Positions 31,816-35,446 of a DNA stretch of 35,931 nucleotides are shown here, one piece after another. Position 1 is the first letter of the stretch; every line of letters begins with the position of its first letter. This DNA comes from Candidatus Naiadarchaeum limnaeum (GTDB lineage: Archaea > Undinarchaeota > Undinarchaeia > Undinarchaeales > Naiadarchaeaceae). The position numbers and the translations under genes were made by a program. The notes beneath the pieces are model-generated. The model saw nothing but the letters and a program-made list of their open reading frames with translations, did no database searches and was not told the DNA's origin. The stretch lies in contig DVAB01000016.1 in the NCBI GenBank assembly GCA_014189685.1, forward strand, positions 1 to 35,931, written 5' to 3'.

Positions 31816-33315
31816 TTAAAATTCTAATAATCTTATTTGCCTTGTTTTTAAATTTAGGAGGGGCACCCTAGCGGGAGTTGGCTCGTGGCCGAGGAATTTT
31901 TGAAAATCTGTTACGTCCTGCCATGTTCCTGAGTTTATCAAAGTCACCCCCCTGTAATTAACAGCTCCGTTTGAATGAACGTGGCCAGTATGTATAATAT
32001 CTATATCCTCAGGAATTGCGAGGGGGTCTGATTCAAATTCTGCAGTCACTATTCCGCTTTCATATTGTGGGCTAAGATGTCTTTTTTTAAGCAGAGTTAG
32101 CATAACTTTCTCAGGATGTTTATAACCATCTTTTAAATTTGGATTCTGTGGGACTATAGTATCAATTGAGGTTCCATGATACAGTAAAACATTCAGCCCG
32201 TTGTTTTCCTGCGGGCGAATTTTAACAATGCCTGGGCTTGAAATTAATGTTGTGTTAGGCAGTTCGTATAAATCAGGAGCAACGTCTTTTTCAATTGGTG
32301 GTTGGGGTTGGGCTAATCGAACATAATCGTGGTTTCCTGGGCACATGATTATCTGAATGCTTTCCGGGATTTTTTCAAAAAATTTTGCGGTTTCTTTATA
32401 CTGGGCAAAAATGTCCCTAATATTGAGCTCTTTTTCCTGCCCAGGATAGACTCCGATTCCGTCAACAATATCACCTGCAACAAAAATATATTTTAAATTA
32501 TCAATTAATTCTGCCTGTTCTTCCCAGATAAGCGCCCCTGTTTCTTTTCCATTAATAAAAGCGAGCATGTTTTCAAATTTGTCAGAGAGGAATTTTTTAC
32601 TTCCAACATGGACGTCGCTTAAAAAAGCCGCGTAAACAGTATTTTCTAAAGTTTTTAACTCTTTTTTTATGGGCAAGTCTGGGACTGTTATTTCTTCAAC
32701 AAAAATCACGCCTTTGTTTATTGTTCCTGTTATCCCTATCACTTCATCAAAAAGCATTTCCTCTGCCTGAGGTATGAGCTCTTTATTGGTTATGATTGCG
32801 GTTGTTTCTCCAGATAAGTCCTCGAGTTTAAGTATAATGTTCCCACGGTGTGTTTTTCTTCTATCTGAGATAATTCCAATAACACTAACTTTTTCATTAT
32901 TAATTTTTTTCAGGTTAGAAATGGACTGAACATTTTTAAGTCTGTTTTGTAAGTATCGTTTGTACTGATTAAAACGCATTGCAAAATATTTAGAAATGTC
33001 CTTTATACTTTCAAGGGGTTTTGTGCTTGCATAGTTAGCGACGATCTCAACTCGTTCCCTGGTGGTTTTTTGTTTTGCTTCTTTTAAAGGTTGGGCTTGG
33101 GCAAGGTGTTTTGGGAGTATCAGAAACTCATCGGATTCTTTTAACTGTAAAATGAGTTGCTCTACCCTCTCGTTTGGGTTCGGGTGTTGTGCTAAAAGCT
33201 CAAGTGCGTTTTTTGCTATCTGCAGCCTGCTGGCTAGAATTCTTTTCAAAAGCTCGTGCTTTAATTCGCCTGTCTGGGTTTTTGGGGAATCAAATCCACC
33301 AAGTGTTAAGCTCAT
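31816..33315 (-). CDS. polB: archaeal DNA polymerase D small subunit (DP1, exonuclease)
   Basis: OB fold plus phosphoesterase: AAFLSDVHVGSKKF, VAGDIVDGIGVYPGQEKEL, MCPGNHDYVR, HTGHVHSNG. Confidence 0.96.
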   Translation of the reverse strand: MSLTLGGFDSPKTQTGELKHELLKRILASRLQIAKNALELLAQHPNPNERVEQLILQLKESDEFLILPKHLAQAQPLKEAKQKTTRERVEIVANYASTKPLESIKDISKYFAMRFNQYKRYLQNRLKNVQSISNLKKINNEKVSVIGIISDRRKTHRGNIILKLEDLSGETTAIITNKELIPQAEEMLFDEVIGITGTINKGVIFVEEITVPDLPIKKELKTLENTVYAAFLSDVHVGSKKFLSDKFENMLAFINGKETGALIWEEQAELIDNLKYIFVAGDIVDGIGVYPGQEKELNIRDIFAQYKETAKFFEKIPESIQIIMCPGNHDYVRLAQPQPPIEKDVAPDLYELPNTTLISSPGIVKIRPQENNGLNVLLYHGTSIDTIVPQNPNLKDGYKHPEKVMLTLLKKRHLSPQYESGIVTAEFESDPLAIPEDIDIIHTGHVHSNGAVNYRGVTLINSGTWQDVTDFQKFLGHEPTPARVPLLNLKTRQIRLLEF

Positions 33316-34505
33316 GCGAGCTCATATTTGAGAATTTCGCGGCCTTTCTCAAGGGCAGTTCCAACAACGTCCAAAGATATTGTTCTTGTTCTACCATATC
33401 TTCCTTTAGATATAATGTTTGCTCCTATCAAGCCGAGCATCTCAAGTTCTGAGATAAGATCAGAAACGCGCCTTTGAGTAAGGGGGGTTAAATTATATTT
33501 TTTGCAAAGTTTCCCATATATTTCAAAAATATCCCCTGTTGAGATATCTCCTTTTTCCAAATCCTTTAAATAGATTATACTGTACAAAACAAGTTGTGAC
33601 TGGCGCGGTTGGGTTTTGATTATTTCAACAACGCGATCTGTGTCTATTTTTTTCTGCGCAGTATCAACATGATTAATAGTAACGCTAGGTTCTCCGTTGC
33701 GCTCAGCAAGCTCAACTGCTACTCTTAAAAGATCCAAAGCACGGCGAGCGTCTCCGTGCTCCTGCGCGGCAAGAGCGGCGCATTTCTCTATTACCCCCTC
33801 TTCTAAAACCCCTGGGCGCAACGCTATCTCTGCTCTTTTGAAAAGAATGTCTTTTAATTGGGGGGCATTATAAGGGGGAAAAACAAGCTCTTCTTCAGAG
33901 AGCGAGGACCTAATACGGGGGTCGAGGTTGTTGGTAAACCCCGAGCTGTTTGAAATCCCTATGAGGCTTACCCTCGAATTTTGAAGTTGTGTGTTTACCC
34001 TTGTTAGATTATAAAGTGTGCTTGTGTCTGTTAGAGAGTCAATCTCATCAAGAATTAATATGAAGGTACTTTTGTTTTTATCAAGTGTTTGGATGAATTT
34101 TCGATATACTTCTTCAGTAGGTAGCCCGGTAACCGGAACTTGCTCCCCTAACTGATAAAGAATGTGGGCAAAGAGTCGGTAGGGGGTGTTTATTTTGTCT
34201 ATTTTGCAATTTAAATAAAGAGCGATTAAATTTAATCCATGTGTTTTTGCCCTTTTCCCAATCTCACCACAAATAAATTTGCTAACAAGGGTTTTGCCTG
34301 TTCCTGTTTTCCCATAGATAAATATATTTGAGGGTTTTTCACCACGCAGTGTATGGACAAGTATTGTAGCAAGTTGTTTTACCTGCTCCTCACGGTGTGG
34401 AACGTTTTCTGGTGTGTGTGTTTCTTGGAGTGCCTCTTTTTTAATAAATAGTGGTTGTTGGTTTAGGAAAATATCAAATAAGTCTTGTAATGATTTCTGC
34501 GCCAT
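33312..34505 (-). CDS. cdc6: Orc1/Cdc6 replication initiator
   Basis: IFIYGKTGTGKTLVSKFI, LILDEIDSL, VSLIGISNSSGF, HGDARRALDLLR, C-terminal wHTH. Start likely MAQKSLQDLF (34505). Confidence 0.96.
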   Translation of the reverse strand: MAQKSLQDLFDIFLNQQPLFIKKEALQETHTPENVPHREEQVKQLATILVHTLRGEKPSNIFIYGKTGTGKTLVSKFICGEIGKRAKTHGLNLIALYLNCKIDKINTPYRLFAHILYQLGEQVPVTGLPTEEVYRKFIQTLDKNKSTFILILDEIDSLTDTSTLYNLTRVNTQLQNSRVSLIGISNSSGFTNNLDPRIRSSLSEEELVFPPYNAPQLKDILFKRAEIALRPGVLEEGVIEKCAALAAQEHGDARRALDLLRVAVELAERNGEPSVTINHVDTAQKKIDTDRVVEIIKTQPRQSQLVLYSIIYLKDLEKGDISTGDIFEIYGKLCKKYNLTPLTQRRVSDLISELEMLGLIGANIISKGRYGRTRTISLDVVGTALEKGREILKYELA

Positions 34506-34533
34506 TTGTCCCACCAATAAATTTTTAAATTCT

Positions 34534-34570: not shown

Positions 34571-34582
34571 GGTATATAAAGG
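34571..34582 (-). promoter_or_regulatory. putative cdc6 TATA box
   Basis: Minus strand CCTTTATATACC about 70 nt upstream of ATG 34505. Confidence 0.45.
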
Positions 34583-34617: not shown

Positions 34618-34638
34618 ACCCCTTTGCTTCCTTTGGAA
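34618..34638 (-). promoter_or_regulatory. ORB-like Orc1/Cdc6 binding element 1
   Basis: Minus strand TTCCAAAGGAAGCAAAGGGGT: imperfect dyad plus G-string, matching the archaeal ORB pattern (TTCC..nGGAAAC.AAGGGGT). Confidence 0.75.
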
Positions 34639-34762
34639 CTTTTAATTTTTATTTTTGTTTTAGAGTAGAAATTGTGGGATTGGTTTTGTGTGTTTTTATA
34701 TTTTATTTATTTACTATATAGATAATAAATAATAATTATAAATAATAACAAACAAAACAACA
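34639..34762. other. predicted duplex unwinding element of oriC
   Basis: 124 nt, about 16% G+C by hand count, between two inverted ORB-like elements and upstream of cdc6. Confidence 0.7.
34707..34728. repeat. 22-bp palindromic repeat copy 1 (inside the predicted DUE)
   Basis: TTATTTACTATATAGATAATAA; dyad TTATT-nn-CTATATAG-nn-AATAA. Confidence 0.8.
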
Positions 34763-34783
34763 TTCCATGAGAAACAATGGGGT
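34763..34783 (+). promoter_or_regulatory. ORB-like Orc1/Cdc6 binding element 2
   Basis: Plus strand TTCCATGAGAAACAATGGGGT; 16/21 identical to element 1, inverted relative to it. Confidence 0.72.
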
Positions 34784-34788
34784 AGGAC

Positions 34789-35337
34789 TCAATTGGTTAA
34801 AAATCGTTCTATCTCTAAATGTAAAGAGTCAAGTTCTTTAACCTCTATTTTTTTCCCTCTAAACCAACCAACCGCTGATATAATTTTTTTATCCAAACCC
34901 TCAAGCATGTTTAAATTTGGTTTTTTTGTTTTTGTAATAACAACAAACTCCTGTCTCCACTGCTGTGCTTTTTCTTTTAAAAATTTTACCCAATCAACAT
35001 AATCTTTTGGCTCCCGATACCCAAGGCCCAGTGTTTTAACAATTATATGCAAATCATCATTCGCTTTTTCCTCTGCGGCAGGCCCGAGAACATAGTATCG
35101 CCTCAGACTAAAATCACCCCAAGTGAAGGCGCCTTTTTCCTCCTTCATTCCAACAAGCGCAAACTCATCCAATTCAACCCCCTTTCTTAAATGATAATAC
35201 ATACTTCTCAAATCAATTGGAGAAAAGGCGCCCTCATAGACTTTGTAAATCTCATAACCATAACTAACCCCCAGTGCATCAACTATTTGTTGCATTCTCT
35301 CCCGAATTAAAGACTTTATAGGTCTCCCGCGCGCCAC
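34789..35337 (-). CDS. uncharacterised oriC-adjacent protein, possibly a wHTH regulator
   Basis: RERMQQIVDALGVSYGYEIYKVYEGAFSPIDLRSMYYHLRKGVEL is wHTH-like. The listed ORF starts at TTG 35349; GTG 35337 (VARGRPIKSL) is plausible. Confidence 0.6.
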   Translation of the reverse strand: MARGRPIKSLIRERMQQIVDALGVSYGYEIYKVYEGAFSPIDLRSMYYHLRKGVELDEFALVGMKEEKGAFTWGDFSLRRYYVLGPAAEEKANDDLHIIVKTLGLGYREPKDYVDWVKFLKEKAQQWRQEFVVITKTKKPNLNMLEGLDKKIISAVGWFRGKKIEVKELDSLHLEIERFLTN

Positions 35338-35357
35338 ATTTCCCCCCAAAATCCCAA

Positions 35358-35379
35358 TTATTTACTATATAGATAATAA
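35358..35379. repeat. 22-bp palindromic repeat copy 2 (promoter of the oriC-adjacent gene)
   Basis: TTATTTACTATATAGATAATAA, identical to 34707-34728; centre about 31 nt upstream of GTG 35337. Confidence 0.8.
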
Positions 35380-35446
35380 TTCCTACTATAAATAACCTCC
35401 TCCCAACTACCTAAATAAATTAACAAAAACCACCTCGAACTAAGTT

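Follow-up and report, generated by a model that had tools for sequence, protein, structure and literature searches.

A palindrome shared by an archaeal origin and a neighboring promoter, and a putative self-regulating winged-helix protein that may bind both

Introduction

Some short DNA sequences recur in a genome at just a few places, and their positions pose a question. In the stretch of DNA analyzed here (35,931 nucleotides in total, referred to throughout as "the window"), which comes from a member of the Undinarchaeota, a 22-bp palindrome occurs both in the AT-rich DUE upstream of the orc1/cdc6 initiator gene (cdc6) and in the promoter of the adjacent gene, which we call X. Why would a presumed replication origin and the promoter of its neighbor carry the same site? 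An initial annotation proposed that X is an autoregulated factor that also binds the origin, and named three results that would refute this: the palindrome being a common repeat, a lack of conservation alongside X, or a product of X without a DNA-binding fold. None of the three was obtained. Here, we describe the evidence from sequence comparison, the alternatives that remain, and a possible mechanism.

The palindrome pair and its surroundings

The two copies of TTATTTACTATATAGATAATAA are identical and in the same orientation, and the dyad is symmetric at 18 of its 22 positions, exactly as first annotated, coordinates included (Table 1). Dinucleotide shuffling of the window, repeated 100 times, gave no match to the 22-mer. 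In the whole genome (983,883 bases, 98% complete), the search that the initial annotation had suggested, allowing ≤3 mismatches, returned three matches to the palindrome and none to a reversed control, i.e., one copy beyond the pair. We therefore reject a genome-wide repeat or mobile element, there being only three copies in 984 kb. The third copy, TTATTTACCATATGGATAATAA (C40:26521-26542), differs from TTATTTACTATATAGATAATAA by two changes that mirror one another, with the dyad kept; judging from sequence alone, this is what selection on a dyad would give. It is flanked by a rio1-like kinase gene and a KH-domain (pno1-like) gene, both named by sequence reading (locus L029). Elsewhere in the same genome, two near-copies lie 79 bp apart (L136; C44:7292 and C44:7371), upstream of the gene for a large predicted secreted protein.

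Table 1. Features of the cdc6–X region (positions in the window)
Feature	Position	Strand	Comment
Palindrome copy 1 (origin site)	34707..34728	.	AT-rich DUE between two inverted ORBs; position kept in relatives
Palindrome copy 2 (putative autoregulatory site)	35358..35379	.	Gene X promoter, probably over transcription start
Gene X	34789..35337	-	182 aa, GTG start; alternative TTG at 35349
Probable X TATA element TTATTTATAG	35386..35395	-	Upstream of copy 2; sequence reading
ORB-like Orc1/Cdc6 box TTCCAAAGGAAGCAAAGGGGT	34618..34638	-	cdc6 side of DUE
ORB-like Orc1/Cdc6 box TTCCATGAGAAACAATGGGGT	34763..34783	+	X side of DUE, inverted relative to the TTCCAAAGGAAGCAAAGGGGT box
orc1/cdc6 initiator gene	33312..34517	-	TTG 34517 or ATG 34505 start; TIGR02928, 2.8e-128
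Probable cdc6 TATA element	34573..34580	-	~130 bp closer to cdc6 than copy 1; sequence reading

The window has the hallmark of an Orc1/Cdc6 origin, inverted ORBs around an AT-rich stretch beside cdc6, and copy 1 sits where the spacer upstream of that gene is richest in A+T (93% over 60 bp). Two placements made in the initial annotation, copy 1 between two ORBs and copy 2 centered ~31 nt upstream of the GTG start of X, both held. A third suggestion fared less well: that copy 2 holds a TATA-like core, at which a bound protein would block TBP (TBP and TFB are general transcription factors). Because a separate TATA-like element, TTATTTATAG, stands upstream of copy 2, copy 2 probably lies over the point where transcription begins and is not itself the TATA box, a likely reading made without transcript data. 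TBP occlusion was set aside for the window on the same grounds, and for the Undinarchaeota we infer that covering of the start point is the likelier event. The X-promoter site of Woesearchaeota is found just upstream of the TATA box.

X is predicted to be a PadR-like winged-helix protein

Alignment of X with its relatives reveals an N-terminal, AT-hook-like RGRP motif and a winged-helix core. The AlphaFold model of X has a pLDDT of 94.4, and its best Foldseek matches among solved structures are the PadR regulators 5x11, 6abt, and 6abq (probability 0.99–1.0), of which 5x11 is PadR bound to operator DNA. The model thus predicts a PadR-like winged-helix protein with a DNA-binding fold, in line with the early suggestion of a possible wHTH protein. 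At the level of sequence, the window protein matched no Pfam or NCBIfam model, the Pfam PadR model included; that model gave weak matches in 3 of 55 X members (E up to 0.1; best, 6.5e-5). Hence, X resembles PadR regulators in its winged-helix fold, and a structure match satisfies the PadR-type criterion, but the Pfam PadR sequence criterion is not met and there is no convincing family assignment. X is further set apart by the RGRP motif and by a distribution that is single-copy and tied to origins.

Conservation of the palindrome with X and cdc6

A contig scan with a single X sequence found no relatives; an alignment query was required. With such a query, a profile search yielded 76 named X loci, nearly all in Woesearchaeota, Nanoarchaeota, Parvarchaeota, Jingweiarchaeum, Undinarchaeota, and Altiarchaeota. 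Relatives with 46–61% identity are encoded in four genomes of the same order (G001–G004), which represent three families, none of them the family of the window. In the phylum of Woesearchaeota and Nanoarchaeota, X is present in single copy in 109 of 147 sampled genomes, and in most Woesearchaeota X and cdc6 are far apart or on separate contigs. One locus with a typical archaeal X and promoter site (L082) comes from a metagenome-assembled genome labelled Candidatus Aminicenantes bacterium (G128), which also has an archaeal-type cdc6 with an upstream site; this bin is probably mislabelled or contaminated.

Each of the four same-order relatives has X on the far side of the spacer upstream of cdc6, with the palindrome immediately ahead of X as well as within that spacer. 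These are the sole genomic sites at ≤2 mismatches in G003 and G004. More broadly, 11 cdc6-linked X loci (from Undinarchaeota, AUK188, S014, Dive96, Jingweiarchaeum, STB_47, and LFW-252_1) have the palindrome in an AT-rich spacer, flanked on at least one side by ORB-like boxes. The exceptions are L034 and L090, where an ORB is recognized on one side only, and the loci of G001 and G002 (L017 and L018), where the layout is more complex. In three Altiarchaeota, in which cdc6 and X are divergent, the core palindrome occurs two or three times in the cdc6–X spacer, including before X, a count that none of 1000 shuffles reached. Overall, an X-promoter site centered 9–66 bp upstream was recognized at ≤4 mismatches in 47 of 73 relatives and was missing at that threshold from the other 26. 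Co-conservation of gene and palindrome in relatives, a further check suggested at the outset, is therefore shown: the palindrome is conserved with X and the cdc6 origin.

Sites upstream of cdc6 in genomes where X is elsewhere

This co-conservation extends to lineages in which X has moved away from cdc6. A matrix derived only from the 47 X-promoter sites was applied to the 400 bp upstream of cdc6, with 300 shuffles per locus. For main-type unlinked cdc6 loci, 17 of 21 have a palindrome within 400 bp whose best score is above those of all 300 shuffles. In the remaining four, the upstream sequence is truncated (L112 and L120) or the site is ~450–480 bp upstream (L122 and L123). None of eight orc1-like paralogue loci has an upstream palindrome.

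A second sample of cdc6 loci was drawn from the same 147 genomes, picked partly for a listed site and partly regardless of site. An upstream site is present in 22 of 26 genomes with X versus 2 of 24 without (Fisher p = 3.5e-8). Similarly, there are 159 sites at ≤1 mismatch in the 109 genomes with X (control, 3) versus 3 in the 38 genomes without (control, 2; Fisher p = 8e-7). Both p-values overstate independence, because the presence or absence of X follows families, and some of the 147 genomes overlap the first locus set (e.g., G194 is G129 by position). The association is also incomplete in both directions: 53 of the 109 genomes with X have no site at ≤1 mismatch, and two genomes (G188 and G229; loci L265 and L264) carry a strong origin site despite no detected X. 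Nearly all other sampled members of the G188 family have X, and it is possible that X was overlooked in G188 or recently lost.

These data bear on the simplest alternative, that the palindrome is a structural element of the DUE, either a cruciform or an AT-rich coincidence, with no dedicated binder. In favor of this idea, the palindrome is AT-rich, self-complementary, and located in the DUE. Against it, conservation across phyla is sequence-specific, the counts are far above those of dinucleotide shuffles, and equally AT-rich cdc6 upstream regions of genomes without X mostly lack the palindrome (the 2 of 24 above being the exceptions). We regard this explanation as all but excluded.

Position of the site within the origin

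The palindrome upstream of cdc6 is bracketed by inverted Orc1/Cdc6 boxes and in most cases lies close to their midpoint. Considering the 37 origins with an assignable inverted ORB on each side (consensus at ≤3–4 mismatches, taking the nearest box; the count is approximate), the site falls in the central fifth of the inter-ORB interval in 28, against ~10 expected at random. The clearest cases are tight Woesearchaeota origins, with ORBs about 55–75 bp either side of the site. The site departs from the midpoint, at 0.62–0.77 of the interval, in the five oldest linked cases (G003, G004, AUK188, Dive96, and the window).

Might the position within the origin be incidental? On this second alternative, X is an ordinary transcription factor and the cdc6-upstream site controls cdc6. 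Two observations support it: the site is only ~115 bp from cdc6 in several Woesearchaeota, and many genomes have further sites ~45–100 bp upstream of diverse genes. Four observations argue against it: (i) the origin site of the window is ~130 bp past the probable cdc6 TATA element; (ii) in some other genomes the site is 200–530 bp from cdc6, yet still between or beside ORBs; (iii) promoter control leaves the midpoint position between ORBs unexplained; (iv) G003 and G004 possess only the X-promoter and DUE sites. On balance, we consider this account rather less probable than its negation, without dismissing it.

What binds the palindrome, and where else

A possible trace of contact between X and the site comes from covariation. 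In the three genomes in which the recognition helix of X reads HIR[ST]IYYN, all 42 half-sites have A or G at position 7. In the other 19 genomes, T is commoner or tied at this position in 16; G151 and G002 (58% non-T) depart from this, as does G133, which uses A or G (90% non-T) despite a T-type helix. The pattern is suggestive at best: the three genomes may share ancestry, and there are no binding data.

A third alternative is that another protein binds the palindrome and X merely co-travels. The absence of binding data and the lack of recognizable sites in some genomes with X leave room for this. On the other side, the X promoter has a site in most lineages, X and the site are jointly present or absent across the phylum, the recognition helix covaries with the site, and X has a DNA-binding fold. 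We therefore judge a different binder very unlikely, and take X as the inferred binder below.

Where would X bind beyond its own promoter and the origin? Several Woesearchaeota have 10–20 sites at ≤2 mismatches with heterogeneous neighbors, and extra sites in genomes with X often lie 45–100 bp before unrelated genes, a promoter-like position. It follows that X is not solely an origin factor in some genomes, and that some gene regulation by X is likely in any case. Clustering of site-adjacent genes at the loci compared gave no conserved regulon beyond X and cdc6: 59 of 69 genes were unclustered, and the five clusters had two members each, one of them being cdc6. Among individual sites, perfect copies lie upstream of a TBP-like gene (L142, in G001) and a TFB-like gene (L156, in G106), named by sequence reading, and a site in G001 is near an eIF1A-like gene (L141).

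The additional sites raise a fourth alternative, that X belongs with sequence-specific nucleoid-associated proteins such as UBP, Fis, and IHF, and that the sites at the origin and in the X promoter are just two of a large set. The abundance of sites with mixed neighbors in those Woesearchaeota is consistent with this view. By contrast, sites are few in the Undinarchaeota (the genome of the window, G003, and G004), and the only targets widely shared between genomes, at the loci compared, are X and cdc6. A nucleoid role remains possible.

A possible mechanism

The explanation that we favor, and consider likely, is that X is autoregulated and that its dimer also occupies the center of the origin. 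It is inferred from sequence comparison, with no binding or functional data for any member of the family; binding by X, binding as a dimer, and the sign of any effect on promoter or origin are all inferences. The mechanism would be as follows. An X dimer recognizes the palindrome TTATTNNCNATATNGNNAATAA. On the copy in its own promoter, X would set its own level. In Undinarchaeota, repression is the simplest expectation, with the start point covered; in Woesearchaeota, where the site precedes the TATA box, both activation and TFB occlusion are possible. The same dimer would bind the origin copy, located in an AT-rich DUE flanked by inverted Orc1/Cdc6 boxes. By analogy with UBP at ucm in Sulfolobus, X would most likely be an origin accessory factor that holds or gates the interval where Orc1/Cdc6 loads MCM. 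Through autoregulation, the amount of X could be kept in step with how many sites there are, which would link the level of X to the licensing or firing of origins; promotion and restraint of firing are both allowed. The autoregulated, origin-binding factor of the initial annotation is thus supported by comparison, insofar as X is the binder; the proposed coupling of X expression to origin firing remains an inference.

The main rivals are simple transcription control of cdc6 and a nucleoid-protein role. Our confidence in these and in the favored explanation overlaps, because X could act on the origin and on cdc6 transcription together. A bolder reading, which we would neither defend nor discount, is that DPANN archaea (including Altiarchaeota) share X as a conserved protein for replication control: it would act as a self-limiting dimer at the center of the Orc1/Cdc6 origin, between two MCM loading sites, with autoregulation setting licensing or firing. 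X would then be an independently evolved, winged-helix counterpart of UBP.

Relationship to known systems

UBP binds ucm in Sulfolobus and contacts MCM, and has been proposed to help MCM depart from the origin (PMC12141716). It is a beta-hairpin DNA binder that is a monomer on its 11-bp motif and a strand-swapped dimer when free, and it is limited to Sulfolobales and Desulfurococcales, with about 329 chromosomal sites (PMC12141716). The likeness to X lies in a short DUE motif placed halfway between a pair of inverted ORBs, a criterion that the X site meets, and in a small protein with other chromosomal sites. There are several differences. X is modelled as a winged helix, so the UBP-fold criterion is not met; its site is a 22-bp palindrome that also occurs in the promoter of the X gene; X occurs in DPANN archaea, including Altiarchaeota, with few sites per genome; and MCM contact, shown for UBP, is not established for X. 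Given the different fold of UBP and its limited distribution, X would be an independent solution.

WhiP is, as X would be, a non-Orc protein tied to an archaeal origin. It is the initiator of Sulfolobus oriC3, where WhiP and not Orc1 defines the origin (PMC12141716); WhiP is a winged-helix protein. Unlike WhiP, X would be an accessory factor, because its sites lie at Orc1/Cdc6 origins with ORBs. In bacteria, DnaA has sites in the replication origin and also regulates its own gene (PMC8203912), a combination that is inferred on both counts for X. However, DnaA is an AAA+ initiator, whereas X is without an ATPase domain and the part of initiator falls to Orc1/Cdc6 here.

No earlier description of X or its site was found in the open-access literature searched (subscription papers and preprints were outside the scope). 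A DUE-center origin factor is a known kind of protein; the protein family, the palindromic site, and the inferred autoregulation are new. X and its defined site represent a concrete candidate origin factor in a large and mostly uncultured part of the archaea. X is small, its site is known to the base, and in vitro tests of the prediction would need no DPANN culture. If it is true, a self-controlling protein placed midway along the stretch where MCM is loaded would constitute a simple replication-control circuit, and X may help decide the timing of chromosome copying in many DPANN archaea, an inference from sequence comparison without bench data. The motif itself can be used to locate origins in draft DPANN genomes.

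Variation among X proteins

X proteins range from about 105 to 190 aa. PadR regulators are characterized by one or more C-terminal helices for dimerization. The long form of X found in the window has three C-terminal helices in the model, a domain without a match among solved structures; most Woesearchaeota proteins have only ~20 residues beyond the winged helix. A distant protein with 23% identity (L028; G027:C5:3609-3935), on a short contig without a cdc6 neighbor, aligns to residues 15–129 of the window protein, reaching the start of the C-terminal domain. The Altiarchaeota X-like proteins (L102, L103, and L104) lack the RGRP motif and have ~80 extra N-terminal residues. Length also goes with gene position: cdc6-linked X is mostly the long form (182–188 aa, with the C-terminal helical domain; L030, L034, L035, L046, L069, L090, and the window), and most unlinked Woesearchaeota X proteins are ~105 aa. 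The exceptions are L097, which is cdc6-linked yet short (105 aa), and L031 and L043, at 159 aa.
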